DNA from: a virus
DNA length: 63,364 nucleotides
IMG/VR virus record: IMGVR_UViG_3300020581_000085
Coordinates: 1-63,364 of that record
Reading direction: 5' to 3' (one strand)
Shown: in pieces, positions 5,500-52,675 of the stretch
How positions within the stretch are numbered: the stretch's first letter is position 1
How the letters are laid out: the number at the start of each line of letters is the position of its first letter
Translations under genes and position numbers: made by a program
Notes under the pieces: model-generated
What the model saw: the letters and a program-made list of their open reading frames with translations, nothing else
Told to the model about the DNA's origin: nothing
The model's database searches: none

Positions 5500-6008
5500 A
5501 GTACAAACTCCAGTGCAATTTCTGTAGCGAAACTTTCACCCATATTGGCAACTCTTTCCCTACGCACTGCCCGCTGTGCTTTGCCTACGTCGGGCTAGAT
5601 GGCAAGCCGGAGGTAAACCTCCCGTTCCTGTCCAAGGCGGTTAACAAGACACCGGATACCCTCAATAGACAAATGGAGTCAATGGCCAACGATAGACGGT
5701 ATCAAGCCGCGGAGATGACCGGAAATCCCGTATCAGACTTTGATTCGATGAAGCATACCAACATGAGGGATAGTCTCCATGAGGGTGACACTTCTTATGT
5801 CCCGACACGGCAGCCAGCCACCGATGATCTCAAGGTTCAATTCGGTGATGGGCAGGGAGGCAATATAGACCCGGCTATCCTGCAAGGAGTGAGAACCGGG
5901 GGCAACGCCAATATGGGGGCAAATCAGGTAATGCCGTCGATCAGAAGTCTACACCAAAGGAATGCCCACGCCATTGTTGCCAAGGGAAGCATTAAGGCAA
6001 AAGGCTGA
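5496..6008 (+). CDS. Zinc-ribbon protein, 170 residues
   Basis: ATGA overlap with terL. The N-terminus has CNFCSETF followed by HCPLC, two CxxC pairs spaced as in a small zinc ribbon. The rest is polar and probably disordered, with many Asn and Asp. It lies between terminase and portal, so a packaging or head-assembly role is possible, but function is unknown. Confidence 0.8.
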   Translation: MKYKLQCNFCSETFTHIGNSFPTHCPLCFAYVGLDGKPEVNLPFLSKAVNKTPDTLNRQMESMANDRRYQAAEMTGNPVSDFDSMKHTNMRDSLHEGDTSYVPTRQPATDDLKVQFGDGQGGNIDPAILQGVRTGGNANMGANQVMPSIRSLHQRNAHAIVAKGSIKAKG

Positions 6009-10076: not shown

Positions 10077-11123
10077 ATGTCCGTTTCGCCCATTCAAGGT
10101 ATCGGCGTTGCTCCATCAGGCGCCCTCGGAAATGAACTGAACAGCACCGTCAGACGTGCTTTCGTGCCAAATTTATTTGTCCAGATATACTTCTCAAGCC
10201 CAAATCTATTTTATCTGATCGGCAACGCGAAGAAGGCGGCCGGCGGCTTCAACCAGATCACCATTCCACTGCAGGGGCAGTCGATGGTGCAGGGCGGATT
10301 TACCAACTACGGCGGATCGTTCGCTCAGCCTCAGGTGATTCCGGCGGTACAGAATGCCCAGTTCAACCTGGCGTACTGGACCGTTGGCATTCCTCTTCCG
10401 TTTGGCGAGTCGGTTATCCAGTCGACAGAGACCGTCATTCCGCTTTTGAAAGCGAGAATGAACGATGCGTATTCGGTGACTTGGCAGAATTTCGCGCAGT
10501 TGGTTTATACATCGGCGTCGACCACGAATGCGATTTTCCCGGATTCATATGTCAACGCATTCGATAACGGTACAAACTTCTCCAACTATGGCGGTGTTAA
10601 CCGGTTGCAGGCCGGTAACTCCTTCTTCAAGGGACAGTACATCAATCTCGGTGCCGCACCGTGGTCTCTCTCCGCCGGTTTTACCCGTGCTTCGATGTCC
10701 AGTTTCCTTACGAAGGTTACGGATACTGCGGGTGGTGAAGCTCCAACCTTTGTGGTGATGAACCCAGCCGATTGGGCTACCCTCAACAAGGACTTCATCG
10801 GGACGGAAACGCTTTTCCTCCGGATGGGCGTCAATGGCGGGATGGATACGGCCAGGAATTCGTCGTTCCCTAATCTTCTGGTCAACAATATCCCGATTTT
10901 CGCCGATCACTTCTGCCCGGTTGGTCAGGTCTTTGCCGTCAACACCAAGTACGTCTCGATGTATTTGAGTGAAGACGCGGCCTTCGACTTCTCTGGGTTC
11001 TATTCGCTCGTTCCGCTGAACCAGATGGCGCAACAGGGCGTCGTGGTTGCCGGGTACAATATCGTCTGTGCCAAGCCAGTGTCTTGCGCGATCGGGTATG
11101 GCCTCGGTGGCAACGCCTTCTGA
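10077..11123 (+). CDS. Major capsid protein (HK97-fold type)
   Basis: 348 residues, following the scaffold with a GGAGA ribosome site. The protein is beta-rich with few charges, as coat proteins are. It has an N-terminal arm (SVSPIQGIGVAPSG), a central helix (PLLKARMNDAYSVTWQNFAQ), the strand VVMNPADW and the strand NIPIFAD, typical of the P-domain region. Position in the operon supports the call strongly; family assignment below this level is not possible by eye. Confidence 0.85.
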   Translation: MSVSPIQGIGVAPSGALGNELNSTVRRAFVPNLFVQIYFSSPNLFYLIGNAKKAAGGFNQITIPLQGQSMVQGGFTNYGGSFAQPQVIPAVQNAQFNLAYWTVGIPLPFGESVIQSTETVIPLLKARMNDAYSVTWQNFAQLVYTSASTTNAIFPDSYVNAFDNGTNFSNYGGVNRLQAGNSFFKGQYINLGAAPWSLSAGFTRASMSSFLTKVTDTAGGEAPTFVVMNPADWATLNKDFIGTETLFLRMGVNGGMDTARNSSFPNLLVNNIPIFADHFCPVGQVFAVNTKYVSMYLSEDAAFDFSGFYSLVPLNQMAQQGVVVAGYNIVCAKPVSCAIGYGLGGNAF

Positions 11124-17931: not shown

Positions 17932-19289
17932 AACACCGCATTGCTAGTGATAGCGCGATAACTTTCGAGATTTACGCTCGGCATATATGTCATTTCGGTA
18001 TTACGGAAGGGTTAGCGGCTCTGGCGGGTGGGGCCGATCTTGCGTCCCTGTTTGGGTTTGGCGCTACCGAAGCGGCCCCGGTTGTTGCTGGAGCTACTGA
18101 CGCCGGTATTGCTGGCACCGGTACTGGACTATTCGGTGGGGCTACCGGTCTCGCTGGTACGGCACTGGCGGGTGGAGCCGGAACGGATATAGCCGCCCTT
18201 ACCGCCACTCCAGGGCTCGGTGCATTCGGTACGGCGGCCGATTTCTTGGCTGCTCCAACTGCTATCGGAGGCGTTAGTACGGCTGGAGGTTTTGGCGCCG
18301 CCGCTGATGCCGCGGCTGGGAGCGCGGCTAATACTGGCCTTGCAAGCGGTCTCGGCGGTATTGATTCCCTATCTGGTCTATCTGCCCCGACTGGCGGGAT
18401 AACTCCATCGGTTGCCGCCGCATCTCCCGTTTCCCCTACCGGTGGAGCCATATCGAGCCCGTCGCTCACCCCGGCCGCCGCCGGTACATCGGTGGCCCCT
18501 ACTGGCGCGGGACCGACCGACCTAACCTCCATCACCGGAACTGGAACGGGTCTTCCTGGAGGCGCTACGGGTGTTCAAGGCACGAATTTAGCGACGGGGG
18601 GAACTCTTGCCGATCCTACTACGGCCGCCGCTAGTGGGGGCTCTCCCACCGCTGGGTCTGGGGCCAGTAGTGGTGCGGCCGCTAACGGAGGGGCCGCTTC
18701 TTCATCTGGATTTTCCTTTGATAACCTCGTGAGTAATGCCACGAAATCGATCACCAATAATCCTCTTTCGCTAGCTGGGCCTCTCGTTGGCGCTGGCGGC
18801 CTTGCCTACAATCTTCTGCAGAGCAAGAAAGAATTGCCCAACGAGACAAATCTTGAAAATGCGGCGGCTACTGCTACTGGCAACGCCAACCAATTATCGT
18901 CTTACCTGTTGAACGGGAATCTTCCTCCCGGATTGCAGACCGCCGTATCCAAGGCAACGCAGGATGCCAAGACAGCGGCTATCTCGAATGCCGCCAAGAA
19001 TGGTCAGCCGACCGATCCGTCTCAGAACTCTACGTTGGCCGCAGAACTAGCATCGATCGATCAGCAGTCCACTATCACTACGGCTACGGTTGGCCAGCAA
19101 TTACTCCAGACCGGGCTGTCAGAGGCTCAGCTTGCATCTACCGATTTTGCTACGCTTGTGAATGCTGATTTGCAGCAGCAGCAAATGATTGGAAACGCTA
19201 TAGGAAATTTTGCAAAATCTTTAGGAGGATTGGGCAGTTCGGGCCTCAAGTTGAACGTTGGCAGTAGCGGGACAACGGTAAGCACCTAA
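17928..19289 (+). CDS. Ala/Gly-rich internal virion (ejection) protein
   Basis: 453 residues. The first 270 are extremely Ala, Gly, Thr and Ser rich (low-complexity GATGLAGTALAGG-like repeats). A hydrophobic segment (NPLSLAGPLVGAGGLAYNLL) and a helical C-terminal domain rich in Gln and Ala follow. This plan, together with the next two genes, matches podovirus ejection proteins that leave the capsid with the DNA and form a channel across the envelope. ATGA overlap with the GNAT gene. Confidence 0.7.
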   Translation: MKHRIASDSAITFEIYARHICHFGITEGLAALAGGADLASLFGFGATEAAPVVAGATDAGIAGTGTGLFGGATGLAGTALAGGAGTDIAALTATPGLGAFGTAADFLAAPTAIGGVSTAGGFGAAADAAAGSAANTGLASGLGGIDSLSGLSAPTGGITPSVAAASPVSPTGGAISSPSLTPAAAGTSVAPTGAGPTDLTSITGTGTGLPGGATGVQGTNLATGGTLADPTTAAASGGSPTAGSGASSGAAANGGAASSSGFSFDNLVSNATKSITNNPLSLAGPLVGAGGLAYNLLQSKKELPNETNLENAAATATGNANQLSSYLLNGNLPPGLQTAVSKATQDAKTAAISNAAKNGQPTDPSQNSTLAAELASIDQQSTITTATVGQQLLQTGLSEAQLASTDFATLVNADLQQQQMIGNAIGNFAKSLGGLGSSGLKLNVGSSGTTVST

Positions 19290-21244
19290 TGGCCGACTCC
19301 GCTACCAGCGTAGCACCATCGACCTCCTCCGATATGTTCGGAGGATTGGACATGGACAAACTTGTCCGCCAATCCATGCCGTCCTCCAACGTAAACGAAC
19401 CTAAGATCATTGAGGGCATGAAAGCCGCGACGGCACAGGAAGCGCGCGATAAGGCCCCAGTCTATGACAAACTCATGCAGGCCGATAAGGAGAACCTTGA
19501 GCGGGTTCACAAGGCAGCGGACGGTATCCAGCCGGTCGAGTTGAAGGAATGGGATGCCAAGAAGGAATTAGCGAAAAACACTACCGACCCGATGGAAATA
19601 TTCGGATCGTTCGGGTTCATCGCTACGCAGTTGGCCTCCGCCTTCACCCGCATGCCGTTCGTGAACGGGCTTAACGCCGCGGCCGGTTTCATCAACGGAG
19701 TTCGTGAGCACGATCAGCAAGGGTATGAGAAAGCGTACGAGGCGTTCAAGACAAACACCGACATCGCAATCAAGCGCCACAACATCCAGCGCGAGGCTTA
19801 CGACGACGCCGCTAAGCGTTTCTCTACGGACCATAACGCATACGTTTCGGAATTGTCGGCCCTGAGCGACAAGTTCGGTGACAGGAGGACTCAGGTTCTA
19901 TTGGAAGGGGGGTACATCAAGGAACTGGAGGAGCTGCACCGGGCTAGAGAGAGTTCGGCGCGCGGCATGCTCCAGGCTATGCCTCAGATCGAGACGATGT
20001 ACGCCAAGAACCGCGCAGCGGATGAATTGCGCATCCAAGGCAAGAACGATATCGAGATTTACCACGAACTATATGCCCCGGCCTATTCTAACAACATCGG
20101 CAATTTCAAAGTCCAGATGATCAAGGAAAAGGCCAATGATATCGCCAAGTCTGAGGGGCGGGATTCCCCCAATAGCGATGACTGGAGCAAGGCTATCGCT
20201 AGTACAAATTCGTCCTTCAATCCTGGCAAAGGCAACAATGCAGCTGCCGCGGATGCTGATGAGGTAATCAAGAACCTCAATAGGGATGGCGTCAACCTTC
20301 CTCCTGAAATGAACGCCGTGATCCGCAATACCTTAGGGGATAAGGGCTCTAGCGCGGTATCCGGTGCTAGGAAATCAGCCCTTGTAAACGCCTTGGAGGA
20401 AATCCGCGCTCAGAAGGAAACCGGCGACAAGCCGATGGACAGCCAGAAGGCATCAAAGATCATCAACGATGCTTTGGAAGCCGCCAACTCGGGCAAGGTG
20501 AAGATAGACCAGGCGTTGGTCAACCAATTTCCCCAGTACGATGGGATGAATGCAAAGAAATTCGGCTATGTCGGGGTGAAGAACCAAGAGCGCATCATGA
20601 ATGCGATACAGAGTTCGGAGCAGATTGAGACTATCGCAAAGTATGCGGCCGAAAACCCCGAATCCATCGGCCTAGTCGCCGATGCGGCCAGAAAAATAAA
20701 CGTCGATGCGTATAAGGGGTTGATGACGAATCCAGCATCGTACATTACGAAAGTGACCACGGAACGGGATAGCGCGATTGATGCGGCAGCGAAGGAAAAG
20801 GGCCTGTCTCAGGATCAGGCCGCCAAGGCCAAGGTATTGAACAAGATGCTGGCTACGCAAGCCTTCGCCGACGCAGCTCAGGCTGGATCGCGAGGAGCAA
20901 CCATCTATCTCGACAAGGCATTCCGGGAGATTTACCAACAGGCATCGTCCCCGCCTGCGTTCTTCGACATTTTGCGGGTTCGCCAGCAGGATTCGGACAA
21001 TCTTCTGTCCAAATACGATATGTCACTCAAGGATCGTAAGGACGTGAAGGAAAAATTCCCGTTCTACCAAAGCCCCGAGTCGTTTCTGACCAAGGCCGTT
21101 ACGTCGAAGACTCCGGCTGTTCCGTCTGCGGCCCATCGGGAGGTCGGGAAGCCGTACAACACGTCCAAAGGCCAGTTGATTTGGGGCGGAAACGGAAATT
21201 GGTATACTGCGGAGGAATGGGCCCAACTTCACGGCGGTAACTGA
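19289..21244 (+). CDS. Large internal virion (ejection) protein, 651 residues
   Basis: Mostly alpha-helical, with coiled-coil-like stretches (IQREAYDDAAKRFSTDHNAY, EELHRARESSARGML) and a Gly-Ala-rich amphipathic segment (FGSFGFIATQLASAFTRMPF). The size, position after the nozzle and helical content fit the second ejection protein of a podovirus. It starts at the A of the previous TAATG overlap. Confidence 0.7.
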   Translation: MADSATSVAPSTSSDMFGGLDMDKLVRQSMPSSNVNEPKIIEGMKAATAQEARDKAPVYDKLMQADKENLERVHKAADGIQPVELKEWDAKKELAKNTTDPMEIFGSFGFIATQLASAFTRMPFVNGLNAAAGFINGVREHDQQGYEKAYEAFKTNTDIAIKRHNIQREAYDDAAKRFSTDHNAYVSELSALSDKFGDRRTQVLLEGGYIKELEELHRARESSARGMLQAMPQIETMYAKNRAADELRIQGKNDIEIYHELYAPAYSNNIGNFKVQMIKEKANDIAKSEGRDSPNSDDWSKAIASTNSSFNPGKGNNAAAADADEVIKNLNRDGVNLPPEMNAVIRNTLGDKGSSAVSGARKSALVNALEEIRAQKETGDKPMDSQKASKIINDALEAANSGKVKIDQALVNQFPQYDGMNAKKFGYVGVKNQERIMNAIQSSEQIETIAKYAAENPESIGLVADAARKINVDAYKGLMTNPASYITKVTTERDSAIDAAAKEKGLSQDQAAKAKVLNKMLATQAFADAAQAGSRGATIYLDKAFREIYQQASSPPAFFDILRVRQQDSDNLLSKYDMSLKDRKDVKEKFPFYQSPESFLTKAVTSKTPAVPSAAHREVGKPYNTSKGQLIWGGNGNWYTAEEWAQLHGGN

Positions 21245-22953
21245 TGCCAATTCCTGATTCCGAAGTTACCCAAGGTAGAGCCTCTGACGAGGCTGCGTTT
21301 ACGCCTCCGCCGTCCATGGCTCGCTCTGCTTCGGATTGGGCTACCTCGTTCATCCGAGGTCTTGCCAAGGGCACTGAGGGCATGGTTGGACTGCCAGGAG
21401 ACGCCGTTAATGCTCTGTCGCACGGCAGCAAGGTCGCATCTGACTATATCTCGGAAAAGATTGGGATTGATAAAGGTCCGGAGCCGTCAGGTCTGACTAT
21501 TCTCCCCAGTACCGAACAGGTTAACAAATTTGTCGGTGGAGATGAGAAACGACGGAATGCAATAGGCAAATTCACCGATGCCCAGCCTGAGACGCCGGGA
21601 GGAAAATACACTCAATCGATTGGCGAGATGGTCCCCGGAATGGTTGGTGGCCCCGGTGGATTGGTCCGTAAAGGCATTCAGGCTGTCGCTGGTGGTGTTG
21701 GAAGTGAGGCGGCTGGACAGGCCGCCAAAGAGTATATGCCCGACCACGAGACAGCGGCGCGAGTTCTAGGTGGCATTGCGGGGCAGGGTGTTCCTGGTGT
21801 TGTGCGAAAGGCCATCGCGCCGTCGAATATCAAGTCGGAACGGGAAGCGGCAGCCGAGTTCTTAAAGAAGGAAGGCGTAGACGTCACGGCTGGGGATCTG
21901 AGCGGTTCCAAGGTCACGAAGCATGCCGAGCATGCCTTGGGTACGTCTCCTGGGGCGGGCGGCGCGTATGACATCACCCGGGACAAGATCAACAAGCAGT
22001 TTACGTCGGCGGCTCTCAAGCATATTGGGGAGAAGGGCGAGGAATTATCGCCAGAGGTTCTTCGGGATGCTTCAAGGAAGATCGGTGGAGAATTTGACGG
22101 GTTAGCCGCTCGCAATTCGGTCAAACCGGATATGGCTTACGTCGCTGATGCCTTGAAGGCCCAGCAGAAATACGACGATTTGTTCCTGAATCCGCTGCAC
22201 AAGCCCTTGGTTGAGAAGATCGTCGAGCAGCAAATGAACAATGTTGCCAGAGGAGACATCAGCGGTAAGGCATATCAGGCCCAAGCATCGGCTTTGCGAG
22301 AAATCCAGAGGGGACATGGCGACCAGCGGGTCAGGGATTTTGCAGCCGACATGAAGGACGCGCTTGATGACGCGATGGAGCGCAGCATCAAGAAGAACAA
22401 TCCGGACGATCTTGGCAAATGGCAAGACGCGAGGAGAAAGTACCGCAATCTCTTGGTTCTCGAGCGGGTGGCGGCGGGTGGCGGGGAAGATGCTGCGGCG
22501 GGCGTCGTGTCAGCGCCGAGGCTAAGGCAGGCGATTGTCGCCGAGCAAGGTAGGCGTAGCTATGCTCGAGGTTATGGCGATTTTGATGAACTAGCACGTG
22601 CTGGAAACCTACTTTTGAGTAAACCCCCCACTTCCGGAACGTCGGAGAGGGCGTTTCTTCATGCTATCCCCGCGGCGATCGGAGGCGTTGCTGGTCATGC
22701 GCTAGAAGGTAATGTCGGTGGAGCCGCTGGAACTATGCTTGGCGTCATGGCCCCTGGTACTACCGGTAAGGCGCTTATGAACCCCGCCGTGCAGGGCTAT
22801 CTGAAGAACCAAATAGCGAAAAAACTTGGTGTGTCGGTTGAATATCTGGACAGCCTCAGGCCGGAGATGAGGGATAAGCTATTTCGCTCCACCCTTGCCG
22901 AGCACGGACGAGAGTCAACCGAACTTCCTCCGATCACGGTAGAGCCGGAATGA
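21244..22953 (+). CDS. Internal virion (ejection) protein, 569 residues
   Basis: Third of the large helical proteins. The N-terminal third has Gly-rich amphipathic stretches (SFIRGLAKGTEGMVGLPGDA, GSEAAGQAAKEYMPDHETAA). The middle is charged helical, and the C-terminal part again has Gly/Ala hydrophobic runs (AIPAAIGGVAGHALEG). No muramidase or transglycosylase motif is visible in any of the three. It ends with an ATGA overlap to the next gene. Confidence 0.7.
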   Translation: MPIPDSEVTQGRASDEAAFTPPPSMARSASDWATSFIRGLAKGTEGMVGLPGDAVNALSHGSKVASDYISEKIGIDKGPEPSGLTILPSTEQVNKFVGGDEKRRNAIGKFTDAQPETPGGKYTQSIGEMVPGMVGGPGGLVRKGIQAVAGGVGSEAAGQAAKEYMPDHETAARVLGGIAGQGVPGVVRKAIAPSNIKSEREAAAEFLKKEGVDVTAGDLSGSKVTKHAEHALGTSPGAGGAYDITRDKINKQFTSAALKHIGEKGEELSPEVLRDASRKIGGEFDGLAARNSVKPDMAYVADALKAQQKYDDLFLNPLHKPLVEKIVEQQMNNVARGDISGKAYQAQASALREIQRGHGDQRVRDFAADMKDALDDAMERSIKKNNPDDLGKWQDARRKYRNLLVLERVAAGGGEDAAAGVVSAPRLRQAIVAEQGRRSYARGYGDFDELARAGNLLLSKPPTSGTSERAFLHAIPAAIGGVAGHALEGNVGGAAGTMLGVMAPGTTGKALMNPAVQGYLKNQIAKKLGVSVEYLDSLRPEMRDKLFRSTLAEHGRESTELPPITVEPE

Positions 22954-23198
22954 GCCTAGAATCTACCCTGACCGATCTAGCCGATCATTTGGCGGCAAAA
23001 GCCAAGACGGACACCTGTGACATTCAGGATGCGGTCAAGATATTCAAGGAGTTGCGTGAGTTCTATGCTATCTTGACCAAAGACGACGAAAAAGGCGATA
23101 AGGTTCCCGGCAGGCGACCCACCACTATTTCAGCGATGCGAGAGCGGATCGCGCTCGTCAGTGGTGGAGATGAAGATGGCGGAGACGACCCAGCCTAG
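22950..23198 (+). CDS. Hypothetical protein, 82 residues
   Basis: A short acidic helical protein (LTDLADHLAAKAKTDTCDIQ) with an Asp-rich C-terminus. It is translationally coupled at both ends: ATGA with the ejection protein and a short out-of-frame overlap with the membrane protein that follows. Function unknown. Confidence 0.7.
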   Translation: MSLESTLTDLADHLAAKAKTDTCDIQDAVKIFKELREFYAILTKDDEKGDKVPGRRPTTISAMRERIALVSGGDEDGGDDPA

Positions 23199-23478
23199 TC
23201 CGTTATTTCGCGTTGTCGGTCAAGAGCCTGACACCCCCCAAGCCAACCCCCAGCAGTATGCTCAGGCGATTGCTCTGATTCAGGTCGGACTTTCGACCGT
23301 TTGGCAGCAGTTTATCATCAGCTTAGCGCACTGGTTCACGATGCTTTCGACGGGCACCGTGTTCATCCTGTGCCTTTGGACGCCTGACCCCAACACACGT
23401 CAACTAATCATGTTGGGGGGGTACTCGTTGTTTATTCTAGCCGCGAATTATCTCGTCATATCGAGCCGACGCAAATGA
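23170..23478 (+). CDS. Two-span membrane protein, holin-like
   Basis: 102 residues from ATG 23170; GTG 23161 and ATG 23176 are alternative starts. A polar N-terminus is followed by two hydrophobic segments (HWFTMLSTGTVFILCLWT and LIMLGGYSLFILAANYLVIS) and a basic tail (SSRRK), class II holin topology. It sits between the ejection proteins and the fibre genes. A membrane role in ejection is an alternative; the endolysin gene lies far away on the other strand. Confidence 0.65.
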   Translation: MKMAETTQPSPLFRVVGQEPDTPQANPQQYAQAIALIQVGLSTVWQQFIISLAHWFTMLSTGTVFILCLWTPDPNTRQLIMLGGYSLFILAANYLVISSRRK

Positions 23479-25982
23479 TGAAGAAGATCGCAGGGGCACT
23501 ATTCGCACTTCTCATCGGGGCGCCGGCCTATGGGCAACAGGTCCAGCAGAGCGGAACAATAACCGCGCGTCATTTGCCAGCGTGGGTAGCCCCGGGCGTA
23601 ATTGGTGACGCTGGTACATCCGCCGATAGCCCCATTTCATCCATCGGAGCTACCGGCCAGATTTGTTCGAATTCCGCTCGAGTATCAAGTGGCGCATGGG
23701 CCTCTTTGTGCCTTCAGGCCAATACCAATTCGCCTTCGACCATCAGTTTGCAGAATAACGGCGCCTCCCCCAACGAAACGCTCCAATTCATCGTCAACGG
23801 AACCACGTTTCCGTTCCCGGGATCTCTAGCCAATATCACGATCGGGACGACGCCGGTTGTCGGTGGAACTAACAGCCTATGTCTATTCGTATCCGGAGGT
23901 TTTGTAGGTCAGCAGACATGCACGTTGTCGGCTATCACGTCTTTAACGGGAGACGGAACGGCTACTGGACCGGGGGCCTCAATATTCACCCTATCCACGG
24001 TTAATAGCAACACGGGTACGTTTGGGTCAGGGGCCCTCGTACCGATCATCACGGTAAACGGTAAGGGGCTTATTACGTCGGTATCTACCGCGTCTGTCGG
24101 TCTGACGGTCGGCTCCAGCACGATATCTTCTGGCGCCACCAACTCGATTCTTTATCAGAACGGAACGGTTTTAGGCGAACTCACCGTAGTTGGTAACGCT
24201 GTACTTAGCACCAATGTCAGTGGCGTTCCTTCGCTGTCGACCACGCTTCCATCAGGTTTGACCGTCCCCTCTCCTACGTTCACCGGAACGGAGACATTTC
24301 CCGATTCCGCTACATGGACCAGCACGGGAATTAGCAAAGTCGCCGCTCTATCTGTTGGAAGCGCGACCCTTCCTTCTGGTGGAAACGTATCCATAAGCGG
24401 GCAGTATCAGGTTAACGGTACGCAAATCGCCGCTAGCAACCTGAGTGACGGTAAAACCGGAACCGGATCGCTTGTCGGCGCTGTATCTCCGGCTATTTCC
24501 GGGACATGGACCGGATCTCCAACATTCTCCGGCAATATTACGTTTAGTGGGCAGTTGATCGAGACAGGAACCTCGCCGCCGTCATCTGCCGGCGGGCAGA
24601 GTTATATGATGGGAACGGTTGCCTCGCCCACACTTACAAATACCGGACAGCTTTCTCTCTACAACACGTTGGTCAACGGCGGCATTATTCAAGGTGACGG
24701 ATCAACCAACGACGTCAGTATTTTCAATAAAGGTGGCACTCTCGTTATGGGTGTCCCAACGGGAACGACAAAATTAAACTTACCATCCCTGTCGGTTGGC
24801 ACTTGCTCTTCTGGGTTAGCCTTGGATTCCGGCAATAATACTGTTCTTACATCCTGCCCGGGGTCATCCGCATCAATACAAGTAGGTACGACAACCATAG
24901 CTAGCGGAACGTCGGGGCGTATAGAATTCAATAACGCTGGTGTTCTGGGTGAGCTTATTATCGGAAATGGGCTGAGCAACGCTTCCGGCACCTTGATCTC
25001 TTCTATCCTCACCGAGCCGCAAGGCCGGATTACCCTGCAAGCCAATACGCCGGTGATGACCACATCGCAGTCGGCCCAGACTACTCTTCGCTACGATTGT
25101 TATACCGGCGGTGGTCAGATCCCATATTTCAATGGCACGATTGACCAAATCGACACGATCACGTCATGCGAGGTGACCGATGCCATGGTATCGGCTGCTA
25201 GCGCAGGTCAAGTTGTTAGCGCAAACGTATATGACGTTTGGTGGGTTCACTCCGGGACCAACCGAATTTGTTTAGCCATGTCGGCAAGTACTGGCGGAGG
25301 CGGCGGGTGGTCGGCTGATACTGGCGGTAGCAATACGGCCAGAGGTACCGGATATTCGCAGCTTGATCGCACCACGCGGCCCTACACTACCAATAAGAAC
25401 GCTATCGCGAATTGCTTCAACGGCGCGACGAACTATGGGTCCGTTAGTGCAAATCAGGCAACCTATCTAGGAACGGTATTCGCCTCGGCCAACGGCCAGA
25501 TCAGCTACACGTTCGGCGCGGCCGCCTCGGGCGGCACGGCAGCGCTCCTCGGCGTCTGGAATATGTATAATCGGGTAACGGTAACGACGACGGTCACCGA
25601 CAACGGTACTAGTTATTCGTACTCATCCGCCACCGTCCGGCAGGCACGAGCAAGTGCAGGAAATCAGATACAGTTTGTTCTTGGTGTCCAAGAGGATGGG
25701 GTTCAGTTTTCCTATGCAGCTAAAATGTTGATGTCCGCCACATCCCAGGCGTCAGCTTCTTGGGGTGTTGGGTTCGACGTGACTAACGCCTTTTCCATAG
25801 CCGCATCAAACTTTCAGTCGGGGTCTGCTACACAAGTCTCAAATGCCAGTTCCAACGCGGGAGTTTGGAGTGTGGGGGTTGGTCTACACACTCTAGCGGC
25901 CACGGAGTCAAGCGACGGATCAAACGGAAACGGATTTGATAGCGGAAGTTTAAATTCACTGATGGCATCAATCAGAATGTAG
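23475..25982 (+). CDS. Fibre-like protein with N-terminal signal peptide, 835 residues
   Basis: The N-terminus MMKKIAGALFALLIGAPAYG, then QQ, is a textbook Sec signal peptide: basic n-region, hydrophobic core and small residues before the predicted cut. The rest is Ser/Thr/Gly-rich with repeated short strands, typical of trimeric tail fibres. The C-terminal domain (from about residue 510) is richer in aromatics and could be the receptor-binding part. A signal peptide on a virion fibre is unexpected because tails assemble in the cytoplasm. It is the first of five consecutive genes with such N-termini. Confidence 0.8.
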   Translation: MMKKIAGALFALLIGAPAYGQQVQQSGTITARHLPAWVAPGVIGDAGTSADSPISSIGATGQICSNSARVSSGAWASLCLQANTNSPSTISLQNNGASPNETLQFIVNGTTFPFPGSLANITIGTTPVVGGTNSLCLFVSGGFVGQQTCTLSAITSLTGDGTATGPGASIFTLSTVNSNTGTFGSGALVPIITVNGKGLITSVSTASVGLTVGSSTISSGATNSILYQNGTVLGELTVVGNAVLSTNVSGVPSLSTTLPSGLTVPSPTFTGTETFPDSATWTSTGISKVAALSVGSATLPSGGNVSISGQYQVNGTQIAASNLSDGKTGTGSLVGAVSPAISGTWTGSPTFSGNITFSGQLIETGTSPPSSAGGQSYMMGTVASPTLTNTGQLSLYNTLVNGGIIQGDGSTNDVSIFNKGGTLVMGVPTGTTKLNLPSLSVGTCSSGLALDSGNNTVLTSCPGSSASIQVGTTTIASGTSGRIEFNNAGVLGELIIGNGLSNASGTLISSILTEPQGRITLQANTPVMTTSQSAQTTLRYDCYTGGGQIPYFNGTIDQIDTITSCEVTDAMVSAASAGQVVSANVYDVWWVHSGTNRICLAMSASTGGGGGWSADTGGSNTARGTGYSQLDRTTRPYTTNKNAIANCFNGATNYGSVSANQATYLGTVFASANGQISYTFGAAASGGTAALLGVWNMYNRVTVTTTVTDNGTSYSYSSATVRQARASAGNQIQFVLGVQEDGVQFSYAAKMLMSATSQASASWGVGFDVTNAFSIAASNFQSGSATQVSNASSNAGVWSVGVGLHTLAATESSDGSNGNGFDSGSLNSLMASIRM

Positions 25983-25995
25983 AAAGATAGAGACG

Positions 25996-27975
25996 ATGAC
26001 AAAAAGCATAAAATATTTAGTTTTAGCGTTGGTCATCGCTATCTTTTTTGTACCAAAGCAGGCCAATGCTCAGGCGTCCGTAGCTCTATGGTGTTGGAAT
26101 CCATCCGGGTCACAAGCAACCAACAATCAATATACACCGTGCAACGCCTCTAATCCCCTCGTCGTTAGCGCGTCGGTCTCAGCATCAATCTCTGGCTTCC
26201 CTGGCGCGTCCCCAACGACTGGTACGCCTATCGCAGTAACTACTGGTGGGGTCACCGGCACCCTTCCAGCGGGATCTGTTGTGGTTGCCAGCAATGTGGG
26301 AACGACAAACACAGCGTATTGTAAGCTAGGTGCATCTGCCACAGTCAACGATCAACCCATATCTCCGAATGGAGGGTGGTTTGCATTCACCACGGGCGGG
26401 GCAACACAGTTAACCTGCATCACATCGACGTCTACCACTACCGTTAACATGGTTGGTGGTTCGGGTCTTCCAACTGGTTCTGGAGGCGGTGGAGGATCCG
26501 GCGGTGGAGGAGGAACTGTAACACAAGGACCAACGGGAACTAACGCGGCGGCATGGTGGGCACAAATTGGCGATACCACAAATGGTCCAGTAGCGGTAGG
26601 CACAGCAGGTGCTGATGCTGTTAGCAATACCCAAAATGGGCTGTCTACTTACAGCCGACTTGAATTGTATAATGGTACGACTTGGGATCGTTGGAAAGGA
26701 ACCAGCGGCGCTGCTAACATTGCTGGTACGGGAACAGCGGGCACAGCTGCCGGTGGAGTCTTGACCGTTCAAGGCGTAGCATCGATGACGCCTGTCCAAG
26801 TATCACAAGCAACAGCAGGTAATCTCAATGCGACTGTTGTTGGTACAGGCACATTTGTAACACAATCTGTTGTCACACAAGCGACAGGCACCAATTTGCA
26901 TGCTGTGCTTGATACGACATCAACTACAGCAGTTACACAAGCGACATCATCAAACCTGAAAGCCCAAGTTGATCCACTAACTGTTGCGACGTGGGGCCTT
27001 GCGGCGACAACTCAAAACGTAGCTGCCCCGACTAACGGCATGGTAGCTATGGGGCAGTTCAACACTAGCCCCACGACCATCACAACGGGGAACGTATCAC
27101 CCCTGCAAATGGATAATGCCGGCAACCTATTGGTGAACATTAAGGCTGGTGCTGGCTCTGGTGGTACGGCGATTGCCGACAATGCGGCATTCACGCAAAG
27201 CATAACGAACGAGACGCCGGTCGGCTGTCTGTTTATCACCTCTTATACCGCGGCAACCACCGGCCACTCGACAGTGATGCAGTGCGATTCGACCGGACAT
27301 CCTCTCGTCAATCCCGGCACGATCGGGTCATGGGGCCTGATGTCCGGTACGACTCCGGGGACCGCTCCAACCAATACACTAATTGCTGGGTTGATTTATA
27401 ACTCTGCGGCCCCGACGCCTTCCAGTGGACAAACTCTGCCATTTCAGGGCGATAGTTCTGGAAACCTAAAGGTGAACGTCCAAAGTGCTGTCGGGACCTC
27501 ACTTGGCACTGCCGTTTCTGGTATCACCGGATCGCCAATTCTTAATACCGCTTATAGCTCTGAGCCAACTAAATGCACCACGGCAGACACTTGCTGGACG
27601 ATGGTTGATCTTGTCGGCAAGACAGTCACGTCGCCTTACGCCAATCGCGAGAACTTCCTCAACTGCGCGGTGACGTTGACGGCCTCTACATCAGCAACAA
27701 CCTGCACAGGCATGGCCGCGCAAGGCGCCTCGGTCAAAATCTATGTCACCGATCTTCAGTGCATGAGAACTGATGCTGGCACTACGGCGTCAATCATGAC
27801 GTTGAACGATACGGCGACAACAATCCTCGTGCTGCCAAATAATGGTGGCGGCGGCGGGTTTGCCAAGACCTTCAACGTTCCCCTGCAAGTCGCAGCCAAT
27901 ACCGCATTCACGGTTCAATCCGGCACGTCTTTAACCAGCGTCTATTGCTCGGCATCTGGCTATAAGGGTTACTAA
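25996..27975 (+). CDS. Fibre-like protein with N-terminal signal peptide, 659 residues
   Basis: Starts MTKSIKYLVLALVIAIFFVP and has ANA before the predicted cut, again a Sec signal. A short Cys/Trp-containing stretch (SVALWCWNPSGSQA) follows, then Thr/Ala/Val beta repeats with a Gly-rich flexible linker near residue 160. The C-terminal part has two Cys pairs. Composition is that of an adhesin or tail fibre. Function by analogy only. Confidence 0.75.
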   Translation: MTKSIKYLVLALVIAIFFVPKQANAQASVALWCWNPSGSQATNNQYTPCNASNPLVVSASVSASISGFPGASPTTGTPIAVTTGGVTGTLPAGSVVVASNVGTTNTAYCKLGASATVNDQPISPNGGWFAFTTGGATQLTCITSTSTTTVNMVGGSGLPTGSGGGGGSGGGGGTVTQGPTGTNAAAWWAQIGDTTNGPVAVGTAGADAVSNTQNGLSTYSRLELYNGTTWDRWKGTSGAANIAGTGTAGTAAGGVLTVQGVASMTPVQVSQATAGNLNATVVGTGTFVTQSVVTQATGTNLHAVLDTTSTTAVTQATSSNLKAQVDPLTVATWGLAATTQNVAAPTNGMVAMGQFNTSPTTITTGNVSPLQMDNAGNLLVNIKAGAGSGGTAIADNAAFTQSITNETPVGCLFITSYTAATTGHSTVMQCDSTGHPLVNPGTIGSWGLMSGTTPGTAPTNTLIAGLIYNSAAPTPSSGQTLPFQGDSSGNLKVNVQSAVGTSLGTAVSGITGSPILNTAYSSEPTKCTTADTCWTMVDLVGKTVTSPYANRENFLNCAVTLTASTSATTCTGMAAQGASVKIYVTDLQCMRTDAGTTASIMTLNDTATTILVLPNNGGGGGFAKTFNVPLQVAANTAFTVQSGTSLTSVYCSASGYKGY

Positions 27976-27978
27976 GCC

Positions 27979-28227
27979 ATGAAGTTTTTCTTCATGTTAG
28001 CGCTTCTATTTTTGTGGAACGGCAGTATTCTAAGCTGCCCGACCGCAACGATATCTAACGTGCCTAGTTCGATTGTGTCGGGTCTGCCTGCCTGCAACGC
28101 ATCAAGCAATGGACTGATCTACGAAATTACCGATGGTCTGACGCCTACAATTGGCGTGTTGGTCGTGGGTGGTGGCGCAGTGGCGTTGCTTGTTCACTGT
28201 AACGGTACTCAGTTTGTGGCGGGGTAA
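27979..28227 (+). CDS. Small exported protein, 82 residues
   Basis: MKFFFMLALLFLWNGSILSC is a signal-like N-terminus ending at a Cys, so a lipoprotein is possible, although the -2 position (Leu) is not ideal for a lipobox. The mature part is short with two further Cys and a hydrophobic strand (GVLVVGGGAVALLVHCNG). It lies three bases after the preceding fibre gene. Confidence 0.65.
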   Translation: MKFFFMLALLFLWNGSILSCPTATISNVPSSIVSGLPACNASSNGLIYEITDGLTPTIGVLVVGGGAVALLVHCNGTQFVAG

Positions 28228-28228
28228 A

Positions 28229-29128
28229 ATGAAAAAGATATTTCCCCCCGCGATCCTCGCGTTGTTCCTGCTTGGGTGGTGTTCGTTTGCTATTGCGCCT
28301 GCTGCCTTCGCGCAGTCGAACATCGTCGGTGGAGGGATGTATGGGGATGTCAAGGCTAGTAGTGGCGGCGGCTGTTCACAGGCTACGACGCTTAACGCCA
28401 AGCTTGACGGCGGCCAAAATACCTCAGCGGTGACAACCGCTGTTTGCGGAATGGTCACGGATGGCGATTGGGCCAAGCTCGATTTTCTTTATGTCTTTGC
28501 CATCAATTCATCTGGCAACGCACTTCTGAATTGGGTCTCGACAAGCTTTAATGGAACGGTAGGCGGAACTGGCTGCACGTTCACTGCCAATGCAGGCTAT
28601 AATAATAGCAATTCTTCATGCTTTATTTCGACGGGATATATTCCATCTTCGTCTGGTGGCAACGCAACATTGAATAGTGCTACGGTTAGCGCGTGCCAGG
28701 AAACAAGCAATACAATAACCGCAGAGGGCTTCTATCTTGGAGCTGGCGATGCTTCAAATTCTACCTTACTAGGCCCTTTTTACGGCGGGATAACTCCTAC
28801 ATTCGCTGACATCAATGACGCCAACTTCACAAGCGCCGGAACTCCGACAAATGCGCAAGGAAGCTGGATATTAAGCCGAACTAGTTCATCGGCAACTACA
28901 CTATATCGAAACGGAACGTCGTTCTCTACCCCCGGGGGCACGAGCGGAGCATTGGTGACGGTTCAGCTTTATGTGATGGCACGAAACAATAACGGGACGG
29001 CGGACTCATTTACTCCAGCAGGGTCAATCTTTGGTTATGCCTTTGGGGGGTCTGGCAGCATCAATGCTGCGAATATCCGGGCAAGACTAAATACCTATAT
29101 GACGGCGGTGGGAGCGAGTGGGTGCTAA
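28229..29128 (+). CDS. Secreted fibre/tip-like protein with signal peptide, 299 residues
   Basis: ATG 28229 gives MKKIFPPAILALFLLGW and a small-residue site AAFA before QS, a good Sec signal. An in-frame upstream start would bury this signal and is rejected. The mature part is a Gly/Ser/Asn-rich beta protein with several Cys, ending with a helix (INAANIRARLNTYMTAVGAS). It resembles fibre tip or host-range proteins of tailed phages. Overlaps the next gene by seven bases. Confidence 0.7.
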   Translation: MKKIFPPAILALFLLGWCSFAIAPAAFAQSNIVGGGMYGDVKASSGGGCSQATTLNAKLDGGQNTSAVTTAVCGMVTDGDWAKLDFLYVFAINSSGNALLNWVSTSFNGTVGGTGCTFTANAGYNNSNSSCFISTGYIPSSSGGNATLNSATVSACQETSNTITAEGFYLGAGDASNSTLLGPFYGGITPTFADINDANFTSAGTPTNAQGSWILSRTSSSATTLYRNGTSFSTPGGTSGALVTVQLYVMARNNNGTADSFTPAGSIFGYAFGGSGSINAANIRARLNTYMTAVGASGC

Positions 29129-31482
29129 AGAGAACAATCCTCGCTCTTATGACTTTTATTGTTTTTTCACCGGCCAGTCTCGCGGCAGGGCTTGGAACTC
29201 TTCCGTATAGCGGTGCTTCGCAATCCGTCTCGAATAATTGGGTTCCTCAAAAGATCGGTGCGGGCGGGAAACTAACCAGCATCGATATCGCGCCGGATGG
29301 AACCAAAGTTGTCCGCGCTGATACTTACGGAGCGTGGTGGTTCAACCCAGCGACGACAAACTGCGGCAACGCCAATACGACGGGGTGCTGGCAGCAGCTA
29401 GTCACTCTCAACACGATGCCGTCATCCGATCTGACCATTGGCGGCGGCCTTGGCAGCGGCGTAAGTGCACAGGGCGTCCTCGAAATTGTAGTCGCGCCGA
29501 ATAATACGTCCGTCTTCTATATGCTGTTCAATGGCTACGTCTATGTAACCGCCAACCATGGAGCGTCGTGGACCAGGACCGGATTCACTCAAACATTGAG
29601 CGGCGGCAACCCGCCGCAAGCAAACGGCAGTGTTAATGGAAAGAAAAAATTCATTGCTGTTGATCCTAATAATTCCAACATCGTCTACGCCTCCACGATC
29701 TTCAACGAATTGAGAGTATCGACTAACGGCGGCACATCATTCTCAACCACACCCAACGTTGGAAATGCCGGATCAAGCTTTGGCCACGCTATCGCATTTG
29801 ACCCCAGCTCGTCCGTCGTTGGCTCTACGTGTTCCACGCCGGGAAACTGCACCACGCAGGGCATCTACGTTTTCACCTACGGCGCGCAGATGTGGCATTC
29901 CACCAATGGTGGCACGTCGTTCACGCAGACCTCGGGCGGACCTACGACGTTTCAGGACATGAGGGTTGGATCTGACGGGACCGTCTGGGTAGTTGATGGT
30001 CAAAGCACTGCAAGCAGTTTGTGGAAATTTTCGTCAGGGACATGGACGAATATTGCGTCTTTTAGTGGGATGCTCGGTCTTCAGTCTGTTGCAGTCGATC
30101 CGGCAAATTCATCTCGTATTTTTGTCACTGATTTCTGCGGCGACACTAGTCTATCTACCAACAAAGGAACTTCATGGTCGGCGACGGCTAGCCTTCCAGT
30201 TACCCGCACGGCGACGGATATGCCATGGTTAGCGTGGACCGATGAAGGAACGTCAAACGCATGCTTCACAACTGGCGCGGTCATGTTCGACCCAAACCAA
30301 AGTAATGTGGTCTACACTTCAGAGGGGGTCGGCGTCTGGTTCGCATCTCCTACCGGCTCAAGTCCTGTCAGCTATACATCACAATCAGCAGCTATCGAAC
30401 AACTGGTTACCAATCGGGTGATTGTACCGCCAAGCGGGACGCTGAACTATTTTGCTTGGGATCGCCCCGAGTTTTATCTCCCCAACAACACGACCTATGA
30501 TTCGACGCACAACCCGAATAATACGAACGGCATCGTTGGCGGTTGGGATGGCGACTGGTGTTCGTCATCAACCACTACACTAGTCGGTTTGATGACATCT
30601 AATGCGTCATCGGCAGATGTCTCCGGCTCATCGTCGAACGGTGGCCAGACGTGGACGGCATTCGGGACTTTCCCCGATATTAATGCTGGTGGCAGCATTG
30701 CTTGCTCGACCCCTTCCGACATCATCAGAGTTGCCGGGCTGACTACTAGCGCGGCATATTTTACATCTAATGGGGGATCGACGTGGACCAAGATTACCTT
30801 CCCGTCTCCCATCCCTACCACCGGCGATCTTGGTTGGAATAACGATTTCGGCTCACTCGGTAACAGCCACCGTTTCGCGGCTGATCGCGTTAATTCAACT
30901 ACCTTTTACGCTTATAATACCAGCACCGCAGGCGTTGGCCTTTACATAAGCACCGACGGTGGCTCTACATGGGCCCAACAATTTTCAGGGTCCATTACCG
31001 GCCTTGGCGAAAGTGCAGACCAGCAGGGGAAACTAGCAACTGTGCCGGGACAGGCTGGAAATCTATTCTGGAATAGTGTGATTAGCCCTTGTAACAGTGG
31101 AGACTGCTTTGTGCGGTCTACTAATTCGGGTGTTTCTTGGAGCGTCGTTAATACCGGATTCAGTTTGGTTTGTTCCTACGGCTTCGGCGCTATATTCTCT
31201 GGGCAATCCTATCCTTCCATTTTGGTGTTTGGTGTTCGATCAGGCGTCTATGGCATTTGGGAGTCGAAAGACGACGCTGTGACTTGGACAAACGTCACCG
31301 GTAATTATTACTCCGGGGATGTTCCGACCGATATTGATGGCGACAAATCAACGCCCGGTCTGTGGTACATTGGCCAGCAGGGTTCGGGGCTGATCAAGGG
31401 CCAAGTTAATTGGCTACTAAAGCGCGACCTCGATCCGGCATCTAACGACAACGATCCGTTATGGCTGGAGAAGGCGGCGTAG
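29122..31482 (+). CDS. BNR/Asp-box beta-propeller protein with signal peptide (possible glycan hydrolase)
   Basis: 786 residues from GTG 29122. The N-terminus MLKRTILALMTFIVFSPASL fits a Sec signal with AxA-like site. The remainder contains many S-x-D/N-G-G-x-S/T-W Asp boxes (STNGGTSF, SSNGGQTW, STDGGSTW, SNGGSTW), the mark of sialidase, sortilin and GH74 xyloglucanase propellers. An extracellular polysaccharide-binding or -degrading role is likely, perhaps a depolymerase acting on host capsule. Catalytic residues cannot be assigned by eye. Confidence 0.8.
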   Translation: MLKRTILALMTFIVFSPASLAAGLGTLPYSGASQSVSNNWVPQKIGAGGKLTSIDIAPDGTKVVRADTYGAWWFNPATTNCGNANTTGCWQQLVTLNTMPSSDLTIGGGLGSGVSAQGVLEIVVAPNNTSVFYMLFNGYVYVTANHGASWTRTGFTQTLSGGNPPQANGSVNGKKKFIAVDPNNSNIVYASTIFNELRVSTNGGTSFSTTPNVGNAGSSFGHAIAFDPSSSVVGSTCSTPGNCTTQGIYVFTYGAQMWHSTNGGTSFTQTSGGPTTFQDMRVGSDGTVWVVDGQSTASSLWKFSSGTWTNIASFSGMLGLQSVAVDPANSSRIFVTDFCGDTSLSTNKGTSWSATASLPVTRTATDMPWLAWTDEGTSNACFTTGAVMFDPNQSNVVYTSEGVGVWFASPTGSSPVSYTSQSAAIEQLVTNRVIVPPSGTLNYFAWDRPEFYLPNNTTYDSTHNPNNTNGIVGGWDGDWCSSSTTTLVGLMTSNASSADVSGSSSNGGQTWTAFGTFPDINAGGSIACSTPSDIIRVAGLTTSAAYFTSNGGSTWTKITFPSPIPTTGDLGWNNDFGSLGNSHRFAADRVNSTTFYAYNTSTAGVGLYISTDGGSTWAQQFSGSITGLGESADQQGKLATVPGQAGNLFWNSVISPCNSGDCFVRSTNSGVSWSVVNTGFSLVCSYGFGAIFSGQSYPSILVFGVRSGVYGIWESKDDAVTWTNVTGNYYSGDVPTDIDGDKSTPGLWYIGQQGSGLIKGQVNWLLKRDLDPASNDNDPLWLEKAA

Positions 31483-34194: not shown

Positions 34195-35217
34195 TCACCT
34201 AACCGGCTTCCGCAATCCCATGCGAACAGCTTGGACGTTCGCGATCTTGTTCGCGACGTTGCGGTCATACTTCCGCGTTTGCGCGATGTCGCTGTGGGTT
34301 GCGGCTTCCCTAACGTGCTCGATCTCGGCGCCAGCGTCTCTCGCCTCGCTGATACCGCCGGCCCGCGAATCCTGGTTCCGTACGTTCTTTGGAACTCCGG
34401 CCATGTCAGCGAGAAGCCGCCATTTCCGGCGGAAGTCATCGGCGTGATACGGCAATCCGGTGGATTCGCTGATGACCAGCGGTCCAGATGCCGGAAGTAA
34501 TTCACGGTGAACCGTGACGACTTTCGTCTCGGTATCCTCGATGACCAGCGTTTCCCACCACCGCGGATCTAACTCTTCCAGCACCATGATAGCCATCTTC
34601 AGGTCGACCACCAATATTTTCTGTTTTTTGCTGGTGACGTGATGCAGCATCAGGTTTTCGTCGATCTCTTCCCACCGGAGCCCGCGTATCCACTTCTCTT
34701 TCTCGGTCACAACATCGGAGATGCCAGGTTCGGCATGCGGGATATACTCTCCAATTACGTCTTTCTGCCTGAGAATTAGTTCAAATTGCAGAGCTTGAGC
34801 CAAGGCTATGCTGTAGCGGAACTGACTTCTGGCGACCCGTCGAACGGCAATGGCATGTTCGGCGGTAATAACCGACGTCCGCGGCTCGCACTGTGGAACC
34901 TTCAGTTTGTTGAGAACTAAACAAAGCCGCTCGCATTCCTCATCCTCGAGGAGCGTAAGGCCGAACCCGGCCAAGGTCCGTAAGATACCAATCAGGGCAT
35001 GAGCAATGGCAACCTTATTCTCGGGGCCGAGCCAGTCCATGTGCCATTCTTTGGCGGTGACGTACCGGATGTCCTTAAGCTCGAAATGACCATAAAGCCG
35101 GTCGATCCTGGCGAGCATCGACGCCTGCCACTTGCGGTTATGATAGCGAAGCTTGTGGAACGACGAGACTTTGTGCGTCTGGTACGCCTCGATCAGGTCT
35201 TTGAGGGTTCTACTCAT
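34195..35217 (-). CDS. int: Tyrosine recombinase (phage integrase)
   Basis: 340 residues: an N-terminal core-binding-like helical half and a catalytic half. Visible catalytic positions are Arg in LILRQKDVIG, Lys in VTSKKQKILV, the box-II segment QDSRAGGISEARDAGAEIEHV, then HSDIAQTRKYDR with His and the nucleophile Tyr. In the usual HxxR the His is replaced here by Gln (QDSR), an unusual but tolerated change in some phage integrases. It would recombine an attP, not identified, with a host attB. It is the main evidence that the phage can lysogenise. Confidence 0.8.
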   Translation of the reverse strand: MSRTLKDLIEAYQTHKVSSFHKLRYHNRKWQASMLARIDRLYGHFELKDIRYVTAKEWHMDWLGPENKVAIAHALIGILRTLAGFGLTLLEDEECERLCLVLNKLKVPQCEPRTSVITAEHAIAVRRVARSQFRYSIALAQALQFELILRQKDVIGEYIPHAEPGISDVVTEKEKWIRGLRWEEIDENLMLHHVTSKKQKILVVDLKMAIMVLEELDPRWWETLVIEDTETKVVTVHRELLPASGPLVISESTGLPYHADDFRRKWRLLADMAGVPKNVRNQDSRAGGISEARDAGAEIEHVREAATHSDIAQTRKYDRNVANKIANVQAVRMGLRKPVR

Positions 35218-35512: not shown

Positions 35513-35709
35513 GTTACGTCTCCTCGTTTGAAAGCTAGGCTGTTTTGGTAGGCGAGTTGGTTAGTCATAACCAAGAACCGAATGTCATCGGCATTGAGGT
35601 ATTTCCGGAGCGAGGCTTTGAAGACCTCCTCCGAAACCTCACCGCAAACATACCTGATGACGAGCGCTTGTACTTCTTCATCGGTTATTCTGCGGTTTCT
35701 TAGGACCAT
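35509..35709 (-). CDS. Hypothetical helical protein, 66 residues
   Basis: Charged helical protein (ITDEEVQALVIRYVCGEVSE). Its start lies inside the end of the HNH endonuclease gene (10-base overlap) and its stop is coupled to the signal-peptide protein. Function unknown. Confidence 0.6.
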   Translation of the reverse strand: MVLRNRRITDEEVQALVIRYVCGEVSEEVFKASLRKYLNADDIRFLVMTNQLAYQNSLAFKRGDVT

Positions 35710-36362
35710 TGGTTTCTCCTTGGATAAACCGTTATTTTGGGTGTCATTAACGCATCCTCCAAGGACATCCCACGCGCTATTCTATGGGTGACCGTACCGC
35801 TGTTAATTGCCGAACCTGACATTTCTATCGCTTCAGCCAGTGTCATGGTTGCCCCATGGTAATTGACTAGGCGATTTCTTCTTGTATTTCTTGATTGTTC
35901 TTTCTTAGTAGCCCAGGTGCAGTTCACCGGCTCGTAATTTCCGTCATTGTTCTTGCGTTCTATCGTATGTTTGGGAGTGGGTTTCGGGCCCATATCTTCG
36001 TAGAAGTCTTCGACGCTATTACGCCACCGCTCACAGACGATTATTCCCCGACCTCCGTAGTTTGGATAGTTAATGGACGATTCGTCGTGGCACCGCGCTA
36101 TCATCAGATTCCATGTGACATACTCTGGAGTACGACTGAGCCCATACTTGGCACTAGCCTCTCCGCGCTTGACCCCGGCTTCGCGTCTGAAACACCCGCA
36201 TGATATAGTTTTGCCGGATTTTAGGAGATGCCCAAAAACGCAGGTCTCCGCACCGCAATCACACTTGCAAAACCACTTGGTATTATAAGTTTTGCTAGGA
36301 GCTTGCCCGATAACAATTAATCTACCGTATCGGTTGCCGCTCAAATCTAAAACATTTGCCAT
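35700..36362 (-). CDS. HNH homing-type endonuclease with NUMOD-like C-terminus
   Basis: 220 residues. N-terminal zinc region typical of these phage enzymes (NRYGRLIVIG, CKCDCGAE, SCGCFRRE). Central HNH-type core with YPNYGGRGIIVCERW, MGPKPTPKHTIERKNNDGNY and NCTWATKKEQSRN. A C-terminal helix-turn-helix-like element (TMTLAEAIEMSG, GMSLEDALMTPK) follows. It is probably a selfish free-standing endonuclease that has entered the early operon next to GcrA; its start overlaps the gcrA end by 41 bases. Confidence 0.85.
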   Translation of the reverse strand: MANVLDLSGNRYGRLIVIGQAPSKTYNTKWFCKCDCGAETCVFGHLLKSGKTISCGCFRREAGVKRGEASAKYGLSRTPEYVTWNLMIARCHDESSINYPNYGGRGIIVCERWRNSVEDFYEDMGPKPTPKHTIERKNNDGNYEPVNCTWATKKEQSRNTRRNRLVNYHGATMTLAEAIEMSGSAINSGTVTHRIARGMSLEDALMTPKITVYPRRNQWS

Positions 36363-51541: not shown

Positions 51542-52240
51542 TCAGTATTTTAGGGAAACACCGATCCGGGCCATGTTGCCCGGCTTTACGCAGTTGGATC
51601 CGAAACAAATTGAGTTGGTGGCATTCATCTGCCAACCAGCCCAAGTATCGACGACCATATTGTTAGAATATCGGGTCAGAAGACCGATTCCTATAATCGG
51701 CGCCACAACCCAGTTGTGAGCGGACGGATTGTTTCCGATTTGAGCCCCGAAGTCCTGCTCCACGAGGCCAGCGAAGCCGTATGAGGCCGGGGCACCTGGT
51801 GTAGCGCCCGGCGTTGATGGCAAGGCAGGGACCGCAGGCAGATTCAAGTTCGGCAGAATGCCAGAAAGGTACTGCTGGATTGGCGATCCAACGCCAACGC
51901 GCTCAATGAATACGCCTGGCCCAGAGAGAGCCAATCCATTGGTCCCGCCGTTGAGGTTGGAGAAACCGCCTTGGACTTCAACAAACCCAAACGCATTACC
52001 CGCGAATGGGCAGGTATAACCTAGTATGGCGTCAAGATCGCCTTGGACAATTTGAGTGCCCACAGGCCCGCCCGAGACCGCGCCGGCATTCCCGCCAGTT
52101 CCGACACCGTAGTAGAAACCACATCGGGTAGGATAGCCTGACGTCAGAGCCTTATTGATTGCGCCGAGGCCCGCCAGGTCCGCAGCATTAGCCGCACTAG
52201 ACAAAAGCCCAAGGGCAAGAACGATACTTCGAATCTTCAT
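51542..52240 (-). CDS. Outer-membrane-protein-like exported protein
   Basis: 232 residues. MKIRSIVLALGLLSSAANA is a clean Sec signal. The mature part is Gly/Asn-rich with alternating strands, a Pro/Ala loop in the middle (PNLNLPAVPALPSTPGA), four Cys, and a C-terminal strand ending in aromatic Tyr (GVSLKY), as beta-barrel outer membrane proteins have. It sits between lysis-type genes. It could mask a receptor after infection, or be a periplasmic protein. Beta-barrel assignment is inferred. Confidence 0.65.
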   Translation of the reverse strand: MKIRSIVLALGLLSSAANAADLAGLGAINKALTSGYPTRCGFYYGVGTGGNAGAVSGGPVGTQIVQGDLDAILGYTCPFAGNAFGFVEVQGGFSNLNGGTNGLALSGPGVFIERVGVGSPIQQYLSGILPNLNLPAVPALPSTPGATPGAPASYGFAGLVEQDFGAQIGNNPSAHNWVVAPIIGIGLLTRYSNNMVVDTWAGWQMNATNSICFGSNCVKPGNMARIGVSLKY

Positions 52241-52316
52241 TTTTCATTCCCCATGTTCGAGTTGAAGAGGCCCGAACATACTCCCGAAGACATTCGTTAA
52301 CTGTTGCCTAAATGTC

Positions 52317-52664: not shown

Positions 52665-52675
52665 CTTAATCCCTT

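Follow-up and report, generated by a model that had tools for sequence, protein, structure and literature searches.

In the 63,364-base IMG/VR virus record IMGVR_UViG_3300020581_000085, analysed here over its full length and referred to as the window, five open reading frames lie head to tail on a single strand, straight after the ejection-protein genes. The virion gene block preceding them ends with a DNA ejection protein of PHROG 26400 (21244-22953, + strand; E=3.4e-29), which is 35% identical to a protein of the Bradyrhizobium phage ppBeUSDA76-2, a prophage of Bradyrhizobium elkanii, and has further homologues in Phyllobacterium and Rhizobium. Just before it, a 651-residue protein (19289-21244, +) lacks a signal peptide and cysteines and gave no family match; from its position it is probably an internal or ejection protein. 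A 105-residue protein with hydrophobic segments (23161-23478, +), for which the family search returned no match and which may be a membrane protein judging from the open reading frame list and the sequence, precedes the five genes, and the 3′ end of its frame shares four bases with the start of the first of them. At the same locus, ppBeUSDA76-2 has a lysozyme and a fibre of the ordinary, unsignalled kind.

At 3577-5499, 6008-7741 and 10077-11123, the window matches two Manatee Spring phages in their terminase (32-34% identity), portal (27-28%) and major capsid protein (33%), with the genes in this order. The window most likely derives from a phage of podovirus type with a Rhizobiales host, the podovirus type being indicated by the lack of a tape-measure or sheath gene among the window proteins scanned. 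Deposited phages include no DNA-level relative of the window, and exact-peptide searches of IMG/VR with the 786-residue, the ejection or the full-length 835-residue protein yielded no direct relatives.

Elsewhere in the window, three sugar-nucleotide genes (519-3312, +), encoding a hexapeptide acyltransferase with a PglD-like N terminus, a DegT/DnrJ aminotransferase and an NAD-dependent epimerase, possibly serve phage glycan modification. A weak integrase-like match covers 34195-35217, and an HNH endonuclease (35700-36362, -) shares 37% identity with a Pam5 protein, Pam5 being also among the phages with the knob domain described below. The likely lysis region is on the minus strand (51542-53763) and comprises an endolysin (52867-53763) with a peptidoglycan-binding domain, a hydrophobic protein of small size (52317-52679) and a 232-residue signal-bearing protein (51542-52240), similar by eye to a protein encoded downstream of the fibre module of locus L013. 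From an inner ATG, a frame at 59620-60036 (+) starts with a twin-arginine-like signal (MTELSRRSLITGLVSLVAAPAIVRA); it has no family match.

Signal peptides of the five encoded proteins

The first of the five genes encodes an 835-residue tail-fibre-like protein (23475-25982, +; ATG start) whose predicted signal peptide, MMKKIAGALFALLIGAPAYG, is followed by QQ and whose mature chain contains 10 cysteines. It is followed by a 659-residue fibre-like protein (25996-27975, +; ATG) with the predicted site PKQANA↓QA and 12 mature cysteines, an 82-residue protein (27979-28227, +; ATG) with three, a 299-residue protein (28229-29128, +; ATG, an upstream TTG giving a 325-residue frame) with the site APAAFA↓QS and six, and a 786-residue GH74-like β-propeller protein (29122-31482, +; GTG) with the site SPASLAA↓GL and 11. 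Two junctions within this same-strand block overlap by a few bases, the start of the 786-residue gene running into the end of the 299-residue gene. Pooled over the five mature proteins, cysteine amounts to 1.65 per 100 residues compared with 0.81 in 18 proteins of the preceding block.

Signals were scored with a home-made rule that demands a basic n-region, an uncharged hydrophobic core and a small-x-small site, with a cut-off of 11. The 835-, 659-, 299- and 786-residue proteins scored 12.4, 12.4, 13.8 and 12.8, and thus display the n-region, h-region and A-x-A-type site of signal peptidase I substrates, while the 82-residue protein, in which an asparagine breaks the hydrophobic core, fell below the cut-off at 10.5. 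Its ILS↓C sequence with cysteine at +1 reads by eye like a lipobox, and the protein may be lipid-anchored. The original prediction, that all five proteins begin with export signals and that such signals are unusual on fibre- or propeller-like proteins, is thereby borne out, with the 82-residue protein as the weakest case: only 6 of the 95 remaining greedy open reading frames of the window pass the cut-off, as do 8.1% of the frames in related loci and 0.75% of shuffled N termini. Given these low background rates, a run of four consecutive large genes with strong signals and one small gene with a weak signal is far above chance.

The five proteins matched no Pfam fibre domain, and PDB sequence searches with the 659- and 299-residue proteins gave no credible match. 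The 299-residue protein does match PHROGs 26223 and 18498, a domain of large phage proteins, and has a 41% identical homologue without a signal in L130. Relatives of the 659-residue protein in viral contigs are short only, so that the description of the run as fibre- or propeller-like holds for the 835-, 299- and 786-residue proteins, whereas the 659-residue protein can be called fibre-like only from its composition and from short matches. A 1594-residue signal-bearing protein with 46 cysteines (L132, 11227-16011) is encoded on a contig that also holds a weak relative of the 659-residue protein. Other arrangements came to light as well: four similar-sized proteins of about 240 residues in tandem on a virus contig (L134, 7764-10675), no fewer than three of them with a predicted signal, and a 497-residue protein with a Tat-like signal adjoining a 713-residue signal-bearing protein with 16 cysteines (L131, 2237-5882).

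Knob domain and GH74-like propeller

The C-terminal domain of the 835-residue protein (24963-25979, +) is predicted by AlphaFold2 to be a TNF/C1q-like jelly roll (mean pLDDT 86, pTM 0.86). Foldseek aligned about 140 residues of this predicted knob with the TNF/C1q-like trimeric lectins BC2L-C (N-terminal domain) and PLTL and, more weakly, with the binding domain of the short tail fibre of cyanophage A-1(L). Sequence identity to BC2L-C and PLTL is however only 10-14%, and glycan binding is a candidate function of the modelled knob. Homology to an annotated tail protein comes from the Pam5 tail spike, which matches the last ~330 residues of the 835-residue protein (E=2e-17).

The 786-residue protein matches the GH74 structure 6p2m_A over residues 116-760 (phmmer, E=9.1e-33). 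This similarity to GH74 xyloglucanases (PDB 6p2m, 5fkq) spans nearly the whole propeller; two aspartates, D67 and D447, align with Asp-containing motifs of GH74-like homologues and may correspond to the GH74 catalytic Asp pair, yet the relationship is distant and the phage-borne copy a putative enzyme. Its nearest Bradyrhizobium homologue (41%) adjoins genes that by eye resemble sugar-epimerase and acyltransferase genes, which makes exopolysaccharide a plausible substrate.

Relatives with and without a signal peptide

A profile of the knob domain retrieved 213 relatives from IMG/VR, 80 of which were kept; removal of near-copies and of proteins cut at the 5′ end left 67 non-redundant proteins, 23 with a signal peptide and 44 without. 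Two of the 23 (L034, L037) fail the rule because of a charge close to the cleavage site and were scored as signal-bearing by eye. The residue at position -1 is small in all 23, and the site is mostly A-x-A↓Q. In a tree of the knob domain alone, the signal label changes nine times, at least four of them on well-supported branches; one clade of 14 members, the window among them, is signal-bearing throughout. The knob has therefore moved repeatedly between the two kinds of protein, gain being indistinguishable from loss. Proteins with related domains in Agrobacterium phage Rivra, Sinorhizobium phiM12 and Microcystis Mwe-JY13 carry no signals. A survey of Tail Collar proteins in Bradyrhizobium and Rhizobium genomes was dropped, since the matches listed were mostly open frames of ~170-210 residues and uninformative for signals.

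Signal-bearing knob proteins are rich in cysteine, with a median of 1.47 per 100 mature residues (n=23) versus 0.52 in unsignalled ones (n=44; p=9e-8), although the sequences are related and the association is phylogenetically clustered. The number of cysteines is even in 19/23 and 24/44, respectively. The excess is also found in the shaft alone and is weaker outside the main clade (p=0.02), and an independent-pairs test pointed in the expected direction but, with four pairs (p=0.5), was far underpowered. Cysteines 542, 565, 599 and 647 of the 835-residue protein's knob are present in all 14 aligned rows of the clade and complete in 1 of 21 other rows of the alignment, the signal-bearing L049 located elsewhere in the tree; the remaining 20 rows never have them jointly. 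Such a pattern is the trace that disulphides formed outside the cytoplasm would be expected to leave.

Comparison with unsignalled homologues places the predicted cleavage sites close to the first residue of ordinary fibres. For the collar-type fibres of L034 and L033, predicted cleavage falls exactly at Met1 of the homologues in Pseudomonas phage Orisa01, Acetobacter phage phiAO1 and L030 (offset 0), and at -3 relative to a Helicobacter prophage homologue. Offsets of 0 were likewise obtained for L059 against Pam5 gp16 and for the esterase adjoining L089 against L112, an offset of -1 for L031 against L055, L066 and L099, and one of -3 for the 299-residue window protein against L130; larger offsets in the comparison reflect domains shared deeper in the chain or ambiguous cleavage sites. 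Because predicted cleavage coincides with the unsignalled Met1, the mature proteins would keep the N-terminal region that presumably attaches ordinary fibres to the tail.

Signals also extend to the surrounding genes. Within two places of the fibre, they occur in 14/70 genes near signal-bearing and in 5/139 near unsignalled fibres (p=2e-4), and among the carbohydrate-esterase-like genes located after the fibre (PF03629) in 2/2 and 0/4 cases, respectively. Exported-type genes of this kind, sialic-acid-esterase-like, accompany the fibres of L089 and L141. L036 has three consecutive signal-bearing fibre-like genes at a place like that in the window, followed by an endolysin; the neighbour fibre of L030, in a mixed module, is devoid of a signal. 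Signal-bearing relatives contain the Phage Tail Collar domain (E=6e-24) and match tail-fibre PHROGs, a Pfam fibre domain being present in L034 and L031. As signal-bearing modules co-occur with a tail sheath gene (L037) and with baseplate-wedge and tape-measure genes (L033, L012), the trait is tied to no single tail type, nor is it peculiar to the window genome; Bradyrhizobium genomes also hold signal-bearing copies or homologous modules.

Proposed maturation in the periplasm and its alternatives

Conventional tail fibres (Phage Tail Collar PF07484, PHROGs 12796 and 8763, the Pam5 tail spike and the fibre-type proteins of Orisa01 and phiAO1) share N-terminal, collar or knob domains with the signal-bearing fibres and occupy the same genome place after the virion genes. 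The latter differ in their added Sec-type signal, with predicted cleavage at the conventional Met1, and in about three times more cysteines, mostly in even counts. The data support the view that the cleavable-type Sec signals are real and that these proteins have evolved in an oxidising compartment. Fibre export itself is well supported, actual export and cleavage being deduced from sequence. On balance, we lean towards the run being a receptor-binding module whose fibres pass through Sec, undergo processing, acquire disulphide bonds in the periplasm and dock on virions around lysis. The fibres and one GH74-like glycan enzyme would leave the cytoplasm via Sec, and signal peptidase would remove the signal and thereby create the N terminus that ordinary cytoplasmic fibres have. 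The fibres would then fold, trimerise and probably form disulphides in the oxidising periplasm, and wait there until they dock on particles when the inner membrane is breached in lysis, or just after release.

The main rival, which we consider less likely but a serious candidate, is that the proteins are exported and processed yet never join the virion, and that as free adhesins and glycan-active enzymes they serve to loosen the exopolysaccharide of the host or to block the receptors of cell debris or of infected cells. The GH74-like protein, whose nearest Bradyrhizobium homologue adjoins sugar- and polysaccharide-type genes, and the signal-bearing esterase-like genes of L089 and L141 speak for such a role. 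It fits less well with predicted mature N termini that retain the N-terminal domains of ordinary virion fibres, with Tail Collar and tail-fibre families among the signal-bearing relatives, and with a location in the late virion block, where ppBeUSDA76-2 has its ordinary fibre. The secreted adhesin or glycan-degrading set originally envisaged gains from the GH74-like enzyme and loses from the many relatives that are virion-type fibres with a prefixed signal peptide. Because of these relatives, a virion role after periplasmic maturation appears no less likely than free secretion, although enzyme members of the module may well act free.

Three further readings have less to recommend them. The original prediction also held that the hydrophobic N termini might be anchors; in this reading they stay uncleaved and hold the proteins in the inner membrane or the particle. 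All five proteins do have a hydrophobic N-terminal segment, and the 82-residue protein is perhaps lipid-anchored; but the small -1 residue throughout the 23 signal-bearing knob proteins, mostly in A-x-A↓Q sites, the coincidence of predicted cleavage with the unsignalled Met1 and the enrichment of even cysteine numbers in the mature proteins make anchoring improbable. We give still less credence to ordinary fibres that acquired accidental hydrophobic extensions by start-site drift and are not exported. Simple prefixing would likewise yield offsets near zero, but hardly the A-x-A sites and overall signal-peptide grammar seen in several lineages (at least four changes on well-supported branches), a gain in cysteines together with their evenness, or signals in the neighbouring genes. 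Equally improbable are lysogenic-conversion (moron) proteins of a prophage that coat the host or exclude other phages: the weak integrase-like match and the homologous modules in Bradyrhizobium genomes agree with this, yet the five genes form a same-strand block directly after the virion genes, with two overlapping junctions, so that late expression is to be expected.

Phages do encode proteins with signals that function in the envelope or outside it, among them Lom, Cor and Llp types, spanins and SAR endolysins. These are outer-membrane, lipoprotein or lysis proteins, whereas those of the window are large fibre and knob proteins in a receptor-binding block. The pIII protein of filamentous phages is a receptor-binding virion protein with a cleavable signal peptide and disulphides, but belongs to membrane-extruded inoviruses, in contrast to the tailed dsDNA phages considered here, the assembly of which is taught to be wholly cytoplasmic until lysis. 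A literature search for cleavable signal peptides on tailed-phage fibres found no report, which is weak evidence of absence as subscription papers were mostly outside its scope; the passages found in papers on phiCbK, 7-7-1, Atu_ph07, rumen phages and Bradyrhizobium phages report no signal-peptide fibres. The new element is the export route; the proteins themselves are of known kinds.

On the basis of these results, we tentatively suggest that tailed phages of a widespread but so far unrecognised class, with podo-, myo- and possibly sipho-like members, build their receptor-binding module in the host periplasm, such that Sec-exported, processed and disulphide-locked fibres meet the particle only at lysis and assembly spans two compartments. 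Should the fibres belong to the virion, the last steps of assembly would take place outside the cytoplasm and require Sec, signal peptidase and disulphide-forming enzymes of the host; this would constitute new host dependencies and explain the cysteine-rich fibres. If the proteins are free, phages would release a dedicated set of exported adhesins and enzymes. In both cases, most proteins of this kind currently carry the annotation hypothetical, and receptor-binding modules go unnoticed.
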